In this document: in pieces, positions 8,873 to 62,866 of the stretch
Position numbering within the stretch: the stretch's first letter is position 1
Layout of the letters: every line of letters begins with the position of its first letter
Assembly: GCF_007990525.1 (NCBI RefSeq)
Contig: NZ_AP019823.1
Span: 1 to 64,000 of the forward strand
Length of the DNA: 64,000 nt
Source of the DNA: Leptotrichia hofstadii
Lineage (GTDB): Bacteria > Fusobacteriota > Fusobacteriia > Fusobacteriales > Leptotrichiaceae
Direction of reading: 5' to 3'
The notes under the pieces: model-generated
Databases searched by the model: none
The model's input: only the letters and a program-made list of their open reading frames with translations
What the model was told of the DNA's origin: nothing
Position numbers and translations under genes: made by a program

Positions 8873-9543
8873 ATTTGTTTAATAATTTTAAAAAGTAAAA
8901 GATTTTATCTTTAAAATTTATCACAAAGTATTTTTATAAATGATTTTTTATTACAGATATATTTTTTTTATAATTATTTTTTATTTCATTTTTATGTTTT
9001 TTCTATTTTTATAAAGCAAAGGGGAACAGTCGCCATCCCCTTTGCAAACCCGGCTCGTCTAAGCATTTTTTTGAAATAAAATTGAAACTCGCTTTTTAAC
9101 AAAAGTTATTATCAACTCTTTAAATTAATTAAAATTTGAAGAGTTTGAAAAAGCTCAGACAGTCAATTTCATTCCAAAAAAATCACGACAATTTTAGTTT
9201 AATTATAATAGATTCAAATATCAAGCAAAATTTCGTTAAAGAAAAAATAACTGTTTGAGATTTTGGAGTGAATTTTAAATTATATAAAGTTATTTGTATT
9301 AAAATAAACTTAATTCAAAATCGAGTTTTATTTTTTCTTTATAAGAAAGTTTTGTGTAAAGCGGGGTTGTAAGGGCATGGCGTCTGATGCCCTTACGTTA
9401 AAAAAGATTTAAGAAATACAAAAGGGAAAAAATTACTAATAAAATTAATAAATAAAAATTTAAGATTATAAAAAAGCCTTTTAGAATTAGAATTTAAATA
9501 AGTTTAGCAAAAAAAATAATAAGTTGAAAGGAAAATTTAAAAA
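8873..9543. other. Long intergenic region carrying repeat copy A
   Basis: 670 bp without a protein gene. The middle 390 bp is the structured repeat described separately (9011-9401). The flanks are simple AT-rich DNA, and AAAGGA before ATG 9544 is the mnmG ribosome site. Poly-T-rich sequence just 5' of the element (8960-9012) resembles the corresponding flank of copy B, so the true left end may lie up to ~30 bp further out. Confidence 0.6.
9011..9401 (+). repeat. Structured ~390-nt repeat element, copy A
   Basis: One of three same-orientation copies. Hairpin P1: arms 9016-9025 and 9036-9045 (10 bp, GCAAAGGGGA/TCCCCTTTGC), loop containing CAGTCGCC. Then the conserved stretch GGCTCGTCTAAG. Hairpin P2: about 9065-9085 with 9162-9183, with an inner GCTTTTT/AAAAAGC pairing (9091-9097/9148-9154). 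Long-range stem P3: 238-250 with 328-340 (offset 9000). Then TATAAGAAAGTTTTG, and hairpin P4: 9369-9378 with 9387-9396, loop GGCGTCTG. No open reading frame. The P1 and P4 loops can pair through CGCC/GGCG. Confidence 0.85.
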
Positions 9544-17086: not shown

Positions 17087-17693
17087 TTAGTTAATTTTAA
17101 ATAAACAATCATATAAATTATTTTTTTATTAAGAAATTTTGATTAATAATAGTTTTTTCATTTATATTTATGTCTTTTTTTATATAAAGCAAAGGGGAAC
17201 AGTCGCCATCCCCTTTGCAAACCCGGCTCGTCTAAGAATTTTTTTGAAATAAAATTGAAACTCGCTTTTTAACAAAAGTTATTGTAAATTCTTTGAACTA
17301 ATTATAATTTCAAAATTTTGAAAAAGCTCAGACAGTCAATTTTATTCCAAAAAAATCACGACATTTTAAATTCAATAATACCAATTGTAATGTTAAAAAA
17401 ATAATAAGCAAAATTTCGTTAATAGAAAAAGAACTGTTTGAGATTTTTGAGTACAATTTAAATTATAGTTAATTAAGGAGATGGAATAATCTTTATTAAA
17501 AATCGAGTTTTCTTTTTCTGTTATAAGAAAGTTTTGCGTAAAGCGGGGTTGTAAGGGCATGGCGTTTGATGCCCTTACGTTAAATGAAACTAATTAAAAA
17601 AAAGAAAAATGAAAAAATTTTATATAAATAAGATTTTAAGTTTAATTATAATGTTTAAGACAATAAATTAAATTATTGATAAGGAGAAGAAAA
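17087..17693. other. Intergenic region carrying repeat copy B
   Basis: 607 bp without a gene, in the middle of the radical SAM cluster. The repeat spans about 17184-17582. The upstream flank (17100-17183) is T-rich and resembles the flank of copy A. The downstream flank leads to AAGGAG (17681-17686), the ribosome site of the next gene. Confidence 0.6.
17184..17582 (+). repeat. Structured ~390-nt repeat element, copy B
   Basis: Second copy, about the same length as copy A and in the same orientation. P1: 17189-17198 with 17209-17218, loop containing CAGTCGCC. P2: the AATTTTTTTGAAATAAAATTGA arm (read from about 17234) pairs with TCAATTTTATTCCAAAAAAAT with a single mismatch. P3: 17420-17431 with 17512-17523 (12 bp, one G-U). 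P4: 17551-17560 with 17569-17578, loop GGCGTTTG. The region between P2 and P3, and inside P3, has diverged from copy A while all four stems remain. Confidence 0.85.
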
Positions 17694-33853: not shown

Positions 33854-34972
33854 ATGGAACTACTAAAAATTCTTTACGGAACAACAGGATTATCAATGAT
33901 AACTATAAAACAGATTATTATGATAATAATAGCTTTAACTTTATTGTATCTGGCAATAAAAAAACAATATGAACCATATTTACTGCTTCCAATTTCTTTT
34001 GGAATGCTGCTGGCAAACCTGCCTGCTGTTGCAAATGAAGGACTTATGGAAAAAGGCGGACTTTTGTATTATCTTTATCAAGGAGTAAAATTAGGTATTT
34101 ATCCACCGTTGATATTTTTAGCAATTGGAGCAAGTACAGACTTTGGACCGCTTATTGCAAATCCAAAAAGTTTATTGCTGGGAGCTGCTGCGCAATTTGG
34201 AATTTTTGTAACATTTATAGGAGCTATTTTACTTGGATTTACAGGAAAAGAAGCTGGCTCAATTGGAATTATCGGAGGAGCTGACGGGCCAACAGCAATT
34301 TATACCACAACCAAATTAGCTCCACACTTACTAGGTTCAATCGCTATTGCGGCCTATTCCTATATGGCTTTGGTTCCTGTTATTCAGCCACCAATTATAA
34401 AACTTTTGACAACAAAAAAGGAAAGAATGGTAGAAATGACACAACTAAGATTTGTAAGCCAACGTGAAAAAATTATTTTCCCAATAGCAGTAACAATTAT
34501 TGTGATTCTTTTAGTTCCATCATCAGCACCGTTAATTGGAATGTTAATGCTTGGAAATCTTATAAAGGAAGCTGGAATTGTCTCAAATTTAGTTGAACAT
34601 GTACGAGGGGCGCTGCTTTACTGTATTACTATAGTATTGGGAATGACAGTTGGAGCAACAGCCAATGCAGAAACTTTTTTAAGTTTTAAGACAATAAATA
34701 TTATTATTTTAGGGCTAATCGCATTTTCATTTGGAACAGTTGGTGGTGTAATATTTGGAAAAATAATGTATAAATTCACAAACGGAAAAGTAAATCCAAT
34801 GATTGGATCAGCAGGAGTCTCTGCAGTACCAATGGCAGCAAGGGTTGTACAAAAACTTGGACAAGAAGAAAATCCCAAAAATTTTCTGTTAATGCATGCC
34901 ATGGGACCAAATATCGCTGGAGTAATTGGATCAGCAGTTGCTGCAGGAGTTCTTTTAATAATATTCAGATAA
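33854..34972 (+). CDS. oadB: Sodium-translocating decarboxylase beta subunit
   Basis: 372 residues, membrane protein with about ten helices. It decarboxylates carboxybiotin and exports Na+. GIIGGADGPTAIYTTTKLAP carries the conserved Asp, and GSAGVSAVPMAARVVQK and AMGPNIAGVIGSAVAAG are family motifs. It is the last gene of the operon, followed by a strong terminator at 34976-35023. Together with alpha, gamma and carrier it completes the pump. Confidence 0.95.
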   Translation: MELLKILYGTTGLSMITIKQIIMIIIALTLLYLAIKKQYEPYLLLPISFGMLLANLPAVANEGLMEKGGLLYYLYQGVKLGIYPPLIFLAIGASTDFGPLIANPKSLLLGAAAQFGIFVTFIGAILLGFTGKEAGSIGIIGGADGPTAIYTTTKLAPHLLGSIAIAAYSYMALVPVIQPPIIKLLTTKKERMVEMTQLRFVSQREKIIFPIAVTIIVILLVPSSAPLIGMLMLGNLIKEAGIVSNLVEHVRGALLYCITIVLGMTVGATANAETFLSFKTINIIILGLIAFSFGTVGGVIFGKIMYKFTNGKVNPMIGSAGVSAVPMAARVVQKLGQEENPKNFLLMHAMGPNIAGVIGSAVAAGVLLIIFR

Positions 34973-34975
34973 AAA

Positions 34976-35023
34976 ATTGCTCTCATTAATCTAAAATTTT
35001 ATACTTAGTGAGAGTGATTTTTT
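34976..35023 (+). terminator. Terminator of the oxaloacetate decarboxylase operon
   Basis: ATTGCTCTCATTAA (34976-34989) pairs with TTAGTGAGAGTGAT (35005-35018), 14 pairs with three G-U, then a T run to 35023. Confidence 0.8.
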
Positions 35024-35290
35024 ATGTGTCCTTTTAAATAACAAATTTTAATTATTAAGACAAACCTTTACTGCAAGATAAGGTTTTGCGGCAATGAACA
35101 ATCCTGCGAAAAAACATAGTAATATGAAAAAATATTTATTAATCAAGATATATAAAAGATAATAAAAAACAAATTAGTTGAAAGATTATGAATTAGCTAT
35201 CAAATAATCCTATTATAAAAATTTATTTCTATTTTTAAATGGAGTTTAGTATAAATGGGAAATAGTATTAGAATAAATTTAGGAGAAAAA
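35024..35290. other. Intergenic region before birA
   Basis: About 270 bp of AT-rich DNA. The only structure I see is a 7-bp hairpin, AAACCTT (35062-35068) with AAGGTTT (35080-35086). No biotin-operator-like dyad could be recognised. A 22-codon frame at 35094 is noted among the rejected items. Confidence 0.35.
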
Positions 35291-62264: not shown

Positions 62265-62866
62265 CCTGCACCTCTTTTCTTCTCTTTTACTTTATAATCC
62301 ACCTTCTCAAAATTCCACAACCTAACTTATATATTTATCTATTAAACATCTTTTATAAAATAAATTTTTGCTAACAAATGTTATTCCTATAATTTCTATA
62401 TCTTCTTCTTTTTTTAAGCAAGGGAAATCAATCGCCATTTCCCTTGCATCCCTGGCTCGTCTAAGCATTTTTTGGAAATAAAAATTAAACTCGCTTTGCT
62501 CAAACAGAAATTTTTATTTCCAAAAAATCACGACAACTTTAACCTAGTTGCAACAATTGATTTAACTAAATCAAAATCAAACAAAATTTCATTAGAAGAA
62601 AAATAGCTAAACACGAATGTATTTCTTTCACTATAATTTTTACATTAAATATCATTTACTTGAATCATTTTAACTTTTTATTGTGAACTTGTGCTTTTGG
62701 AATCTCTTTATGAGTTAAACGAATTCTATTTTTCTTTTATAAGAAAGTTTTGCATCGAGCAGGTGTGCAGAGGTATGGCGTCTGATACCTCTGCGTTAAA
62801 AAAATTAATATAAATAAAATAAGAAAAAATAATCATTAATTAAAATGTCTTAAAATAAAAAATAAA
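62265..62866. other. Intergenic region between gyrB and gyrA carrying repeat copy C
   Basis: 602 bp. gyrB and gyrA are usually close; here the gap is filled by a structured repeat (62416-62800), in the orientation opposite to the genes. The remainder is AT-rich with no gene. Confidence 0.6.
62416..62800 (+). repeat. Structured ~390-nt repeat element, copy C (diverged)
   Basis: The most diverged copy, and the key to the structure. P1: 62418-62428 with 62437-62447 (GCAAGGGAAAT/ATTTCCCTTGC), loop CAATCGCC. P2: 62467-62486 with 62509-62528, a perfect 20-bp stem. P3: 62596-62606 with 62726-62736. P4: 62767-62776 with 62785-62794 (GCAGAGGTAT/ATACCTCTGC), loop GGCGTCTG. Compared with copy A, three P1 pairs and four P4 pairs changed on both strands. 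GGCTCGTCTAAG, AAACTCGCTTT, ATCACGACAA and TATAAGAAAGTTTTG are unchanged. Confidence 0.85.

Follow-up and report, generated by a model that had tools for sequence, protein, structure and literature searches.

A dispersed Leptotrichia repeat as a probable old member of a MITE-type family built from two structured half-units back to back

Three non-coding copies of a repeat of about 390 nt lie on one strand at 9.0, 17.2, and 62.4 kb of the window, the 64,000-nt stretch of the Leptotrichia hofstadii genome analyzed here (contig NZ_AP019823.1, positions 1 to 64,000), as reported in the initial annotation and confirmed in the window sequence. In our assessment, with a probability of about 0.72, the repeat is an old member of a Leptotrichia-specific, non-autonomous (MITE-type) family in which two structured half-units stand back to back, each read outward. 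The count of three holds for the window only, and about 40 copies occur in the genome, on both strands. Similarity among the window copies is far above chance (best non-self BLAST E = 4.5e-128), none contains an ORF of 80 aa or longer, and there is no transposase gene in the element.

Copy A, including its A/T-rich arms, occupies 8960-9440 on the plus strand, and copies B (17137-17620) and C (62380-62830), each likewise composed of an alpha and a beta half-unit, have the same orientation. The outer ends of copy A lack a sharp boundary, and the limits of 9011-9401 first given for it are too narrow, with conserved DNA extending about 50-100 bp further on either side. On the plus strand of copy A, the alpha half-unit comprises hairpin P1 (9016-9045, stem GCAAAGGGG/CCCCTTTGC), the motif GGCTCGTCTAAG (9052-9063), the 5′ and 3′ arms of P2 (9065-9084 and 9164-9183), and ATCACGACAA (9182-9191), whose GAC pairs with the GTC of GGCTCGTCTAAG in helix P0 and which would form the start of an outward-read alpha RNA. 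The beta half-unit carries the motif TATAAGAAAGTTTTG (9340-9354, plus strand) and hairpin P4 (9369-9396, plus strand, GTAAGGGCAT/ATGCCCTTAC). By folding, the predicted outward-read RNAs of copy A cover 9014-9192 on the minus strand for alpha (P0-P2-linker-P1) and 9221-9400 on the plus strand for beta, the latter directed towards mnmG.

P1 and P4 lie at 17189-17218 and 17551-17578 in copy B and at 62418-62447 and 62767-62794 in copy C, all on the plus strand. Copies A and B share their stems, and copy C has GCAAGGGAA/TTCCCTTGC in P1 and GCAGAGGTAT/ATACCTCTGC in P4, so that the reported changes between A/B and C, at three pairs of P1 and four pairs of P4, are indeed each compensated. P2 of copy C (62467-62528, plus strand) is likewise the perfect 20-bp stem described, with arms at 62467-62486 and 62509-62528. 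Among the motifs said to stay fixed, GGCTCGTCTAAG and TATAAGAAAGTTTTG recur without change in the three copies, but ATCACGACAA reads ATCACGACAT in copy B, and their description as single-stranded was mistaken for GGCTCGTCTAAG and ATCACGACA, which partly pair with each other in helix P0 (GUC/GAC). The proposed long-range stem P3 can be drawn between the halves because these are half-units arranged as an inverted pair, but each half folds locally.

That organization emerges when the copies are aligned in orientation, with the two half-units facing outward. Alpha has the order P1, CCGGCTCGTCTAAG, P2, ATCACGACA, and beta is its mirror image, running from AAGCAAAATTTCGTT through a P2-like stem and TATAAGAAAGTTTTGCG...CGGGG to P4; the near-complementarity of the P1 and P4 loops follows from the imperfect inverted repeats at the ends. 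A third type, gamma, consists of a TTGCTCATTGCCGCAA hairpin, GGCTAGTCTACGAC, P2, and CTCCGACGG and substitutes for either half. Half-units are found as alpha+beta, as alpha+gamma (loci L009 and L012, and genome G007), as alpha+alpha (L039), and as single alpha units (L014, L021, L023, and L024). At the site of copy B, the flanks are constant between species, whereas P1 and P2 have been exchanged as entire modules. Additional inserts of about 70-77 bp are found in P2 loops and in the inner P1 and P4 arms. This module, TTTCGCAATAACAGTTATTTTAAC...GGCGAAA, which may be a further small mobile repeat, takes mirror-image positions in the inner P1 and P4 arms, on the 5′ side at L004, L012, L018, L026, and L034 and on the 3′ side at L011, L015, L030, L034, and L036, in addition to its places in P2 loops. 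Locus L036 (G000:C1:1253800-1257200, G000 being the host genome) also holds a RelB/YafQ-like toxin-antitoxin gene pair in three tandem units of about 923 bp, two of which are followed by a beta half-unit, and the element appears to have been duplicated along with the gene pair.

Within the host genome, BLAST returned 86 matching pieces, and covariance-model searches gave 42 alpha hits (5′ model) and 44 beta hits (3′ model). The family is present in all 13 Leptotrichia genomes, at 1 to 51 copies per genome and hundreds of copies genus-wide. Among 83 other genomes of the order, the alpha model found nothing and the beta model gave a marginal hit in one (E = 0.008), and a pattern scan for the alpha motif across GTDB genomes returned Leptotrichia only. 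Searches of viral contigs, plasmids, and phages yielded no match to the element. No Rfam family reached its gathering score in the window, and none was credible at E≤5 for single units; a CRISPR repeat next to an unrelated copy was the one Rfam hit to pass threshold. Of 38 older copies placed in the host genome, 27 lie between tandem genes and eight between convergent genes.

The compensated changes in P1 and P4 had been read as selection on a fold, an inference that fails once most P1 stems are seen to be three alleles swapped as blocks between species. Across the genus, 102 of 128 P1 stems (80%) belong to one of three alleles. Comparison of P1 at orthologous sites found 45 pairs unchanged, 13 with one uncompensated, one-sided change, 11 in which the whole allele had switched (3 or 4 base pairs together), and no clean single compensated change; a double change occurs once, in a pair whose loop and P2 differ as well. 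Because of these counts, compensation between copies is mostly attributable to block-exchanged alleles, and the orthologous-site comparison rules it out as direct evidence of selection. Uncompensated changes, which the initial annotation had named as evidence against its fold, are present in part, as the 13 one-sided changes in P1. The exchange of hairpin alleles as blocks would probably proceed via gene conversion. For other repeats, the case carries the caution that compensated changes between dispersed copies can arise from swapped alleles, and it suggests wobble asymmetry as a useful second test.

Applied here, the wobble test points to one strand. With units co-oriented, P2 mismatches on the unit plus strand are A.C far more often than G.T (200:21 in alpha, 55:1 in gamma, 37:3 in gamma2, and 23:2 in beta), and A.C on that strand means G.U pairs on the outward-read strand, where G.U outnumbers A.C by 166:10 over P0, P2, and P1. 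When 66 alpha units are aligned on the outward strand, 99.1% of 2241 helix cells are standard pairs, 13 pairs show double changes, and the covariation score is 0.289 compared with 0.162 after shuffling; shifting the helix partner by 1-3 columns destroys the pairing signal. The common C/T change in CTCGTC/CTTGTC turns U.G into U-A in helix P0, and gamma and gamma2 exchange GUC/GAC for GAC/GUC in the same helix. All five half-units folded from the window copies are more stable on the outward strand, by 4.5 to 9.6 kcal/mol, as in copy A, with -55.9 versus -46.7 kcal/mol for alpha and -46.0 versus -36.4 kcal/mol for beta. In the outward fold, P0 encloses the P2 stem of about 20 bp and hairpin P1 comes next. 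The outward-strand wobble asymmetry and the covariation, from test cells that are non-independent, are strong but not final support for a fold, and a strand-biased mutation process may be an alternative source of the G.U excess. A promoter at the element center was considered and rejected, the TATAAT-like block upstream of P0 being weak and lacking a -35 box.

At 28 orthologous sites with unswapped copies, the element has diverged by 3.1%, measured on parts not used for choosing the pairs (arms, loop, and spacer), compared with 16.9% at flanking third codon positions and 7.7% in nearby intergenic DNA, and it is less diverged than the third codon positions at all 28. As a control, ordinary intergenic DNA over the window differs by 14-21% between the host genome and G002 or G001. 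The low divergence at shared sites, a figure subject to ascertainment, fits both purifying selection and preferential conversion, and conversion or interspecies exchange could be its source. Both orientations are held, in different species, at 20 of 36 orthologous sites, and free orientation of this kind is in keeping with an element that has a sense unit on either strand.

Mobility is recorded in the sister genome G007, where about 40 young copies are 90-100% alike and end sharply (GATGGTTTAAAAATTTTAGGGG ... CCCCTAACTATTTTACTCTGTC, with TIRs GATGG...CTCTGTC). The cleanly bounded copies measure 459-481 bp, and 25 of 37 copies measured are flanked by an exact 10-bp target duplication; these elements are short, devoid of a transposase gene, and equipped with TIRs and target duplications, as MITEs are. 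A search for the G007-type ends found, in G001, oppositely oriented pairs of GACAGAGTAAAAAATATAGGGGCA spaced 1.5 kb from each other, which bound complete elements of 1.51-1.53 kb with duplications of 9, 10, and 10 bp in three cases. These elements encode an ISLre2-family transposase (NF033529, E = 2.7e-71; also UPF0236) and are probably the published ISLbu1. The ends of the G007 elements match GACAGAGTAAAAAATATAGGGGCA at about 18-19 of 24 positions, and an ISLre2 (ISLbu1-type) transposase would mobilize the G007 elements in trans.

The targets agree with what is known of these enzymes, since ISLre2/TnGBS transposases insert 15-17 bp upstream of the -35 boxes of sigma-A promoters, and ISLbu1 of L. 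buccalis, with perfect 24-bp IRs, inserts in both orientations (PMC3942029). Around the 37 G007 insertions, strong promoter-like sites face outward in 44 of 74 flanks, compared with six facing inward and seven in shuffled sequence, and the -35 hexamer is mostly 16-17 bp from the element end. None of 16 young insertions examined lies between convergent genes, which agrees with promoter-upstream targeting. The hairpin-ended mobile element suggested at the outset is borne out with respect to mobility by the G007 TIRs, the 10-bp duplications, and an ISLre2 element with partly matching ends. Of the two database matches that had been named as counting against a selected fold, to a known IS end or to an Rfam family, an IS with partly matching ends was found and an Rfam match was not.

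The sites of copies A (mnmG) and C are empty, with a short spacer only, in G005, G007, G009, G011, and G012, and hold the element in either orientation in other genomes of the genus. Upstream of mnmG in G006 (L076), a deletion scar between short direct repeats has left both arms, the loss having taken place between GCAAAGGG in P1 and ACAAAAGGG beyond P4. Neither the left-arm consensus nor comparison with empty sites revealed a recognizable TIR or target duplication in the window copies, and the ISLre2-type end pattern gave one background match only in the host genome. In the left arms of older copies, conservation fades about 100 bp from P1, again with no sharp end.

Some long copies end in TACTAAACC..., the mark of a second MITE type with 3-bp TWA duplications, for which about 117 TACTAWWCCC ends were counted in the host genome and 96 in G001, compared with 13 and 8 for the backwards pattern used as a control. 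MITEs of this type carry gamma units, so that half-units ride in two unrelated end types. No transposase of the TACTAWWCCC type was found. An IS5-family gene (L342) beside one such end was dismissed as a partner because it belongs to a separate IS with its own ends; this element (NF033580, G001:C1:2287700-2290100, ends GGGCGTGTCTGAAAACT) is inserted in a gamma MITE, and end sequences similar to GGGCGTGTCTGAAAACT also occur near L021 and L108. The window itself contains a remnant of another repeat between two genes (34960-35268), with a gamma-type P1 hairpin, TTGTTCATTGCCGCAA, on the minus strand at 35086 and a TACTAWWCCC-type end near 35234-35267. Elsewhere in G001 (L334, 7-114), a CRISPR repeat (Rfam CRISPR-DR7, 45.3 bits) directly adjoins a gamma MITE.

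How the window copies reached their sites admits two accounts. The alpha-beta copies may once have moved like the G007 elements and have since lost recognizable ends, or they may have been moved by the transposase of the TACTAWWCCC end type, with its 3-bp TWA duplication. They are assigned to the family through the half-unit that they have in common with it. Alpha is present in the G007 and window elements alike but has a different partner, gamma in the former and beta in the latter; because the partners differ, and because gamma also sits in TACTAWWCCC-ended elements, the half-units may predate any individual transposon.

Other explanations account for parts of this picture. In a purely selfish palindromic MITE, the hairpins would be by-products of nested inverted repeats with no RNA role, and copying from arm to arm, together with gene conversion among copies, would keep their stems perfect. 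The dominance of three P1 alleles (80% of stems), block switching at orthologous sites, uncompensated single changes at shared sites, the presence of both orientations at 20 of 36 sites, and the wide variation in copy number (1 to 51) are all as expected of such an element. Arm copying, however, would remove both kinds of mismatch, whereas A.C exceeds G.T in four unit types, and shared copies are little diverged at 28 of 28 sites, and this explanation is on balance unlikely. Domestication as bidirectional terminators or insulators, in which one sense unit per strand halts read-through either way, would explain free inversion (both orientations at 20 of 36 sites) and the outward units back to back, and it fits the 27 of 38 host copies between tandem genes. 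Apart from the missing U-tract it is a serious rival, but the outward side of P1 and P4 is A-rich rather than U-rich, an intrinsic terminator was rejected on that ground, and the idea as a whole is improbable.

Two further readings fare worse. The structured ncRNA alternative stands insofar as a fold of predicted RNA is supported in each half, but one large RNA of about 390 nt spanning the whole element is very improbable, even with P3 drawable between the halves and the three window copies co-oriented, because the halves point in opposite directions and are also found singly or in other pairings (alpha+alpha or alpha+gamma); moreover, the stable, wobble-tolerant strand differs between the halves, and no Rfam match exists. 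The inverted hairpin pairs and the CGTC/TGTC motif, which resemble head-to-head CGTC-tagged REP dimers (PMC3733652), suggest a REP/BIME-like element that a Y1 (IS200/RAYT) transposase would move as single-stranded DNA. The genome does have one intact and one broken Y1 transposase gene of IS200 type, but their flanks are unrelated to the element, and the units measure 100-180 nt instead of 20-40. Young copies, moreover, make 10-bp duplications, which Y1 enzymes are not known to make. This origin is the most remote of those considered.

The preferred reading, an old MITE-type family of outward-read half-unit pairs, makes the repeat probably both a genome parasite and, judged from its sequence, a source of RNA structure beside many genes. 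A half-unit would act as RNA in transcripts leaving the element, and the simplest such role would be that of a cis-acting processing or stability hairpin in the mRNA of the neighboring gene, with the long P2 serving as an RNase III-type substrate, a role of the sort suggested for NEMIS and ERIC (PMC2229807). Granted an RNA role, this particular one is suggested by anatomy and is held tentatively, at somewhat less than even odds. It is conceivable, though less likely than not, that P0-P2-P1 constitutes a genus-specific structured RNA unit outside Rfam, carried in back-to-back pairs by non-autonomous transposons of at least two unrelated end types, one of them aimed at promoters. Hosts would then keep the unit as a functional RNA after insertion, and dozens of genes would have received a mobile RNA regulator. 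If the preferred reading is right, each insertion at its set spacing from a promoter would bring with it two RNA structures, one per direction, and the orthologous sites that are empty, occupied, inverted, or module-swapped in close species offer a natural experiment on mobile RNA structure and gene expression.

Among the papers searched, none describes a Leptotrichia MITE or the repeat itself. MITEs with structured transcripts and promoter-targeted ISLre2 insertion are already known; what is new is the unlisted RNA-like fold of the half-unit, its back-to-back pairing, its occurrence with two kinds of ends, and the exchange of hairpins as blocks. In mobility, a close parallel is ISLbu1 (ISLre2 family, p-MULT 3), which has 24-bp ends similar to those of the G007 elements, makes 9-10-bp duplications, and inserts 15-17 bp upstream of sigma-A -35 boxes in both orientations (PMC3942029). 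Unlike ISLbu1, the element lacks a transposase gene, and its structured half-units have no counterpart in the IS; its G007 ends match in part only, and the window copies have no recognizable ends.

Correia/NEMIS elements of Neisseria and ERIC elements of enterobacteria are comparable as MITEs of intergenic regions with transcripts that fold into long stem-loops; RNase III has been proposed to cut NEMIS RNA, and ERIC affects mRNA stability (PMC2229807). Those elements are about 100-200 bp long with one end-to-end stem, whereas the Leptotrichia element is made of two multi-helix outward units, and no sequence relation to either was found. BOX elements of streptococci are similarly composite, modular, and structured (67-637 bp), with TIRs and target duplications (PMC3049150), but BOX modules are arranged in tandem as A-B-C and linked to ISSpn2, whereas the Leptotrichia units form inverted pairs and are linked to ISLre2. 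CGTC-tagged REPs share the inverted head-to-head palindromic dimers and the CGTC/TGTC tag (PMC3733652), yet their stems are 8-9 bp, their loops 4-5 nt, and their units 20-40 bp, and the CGTC of the Leptotrichia element is part of helix P0 in a unit of 100-180 nt. With Rfam families, the half-units have in common a multi-helix, RNA-like fold, but no credible match to any family was found.
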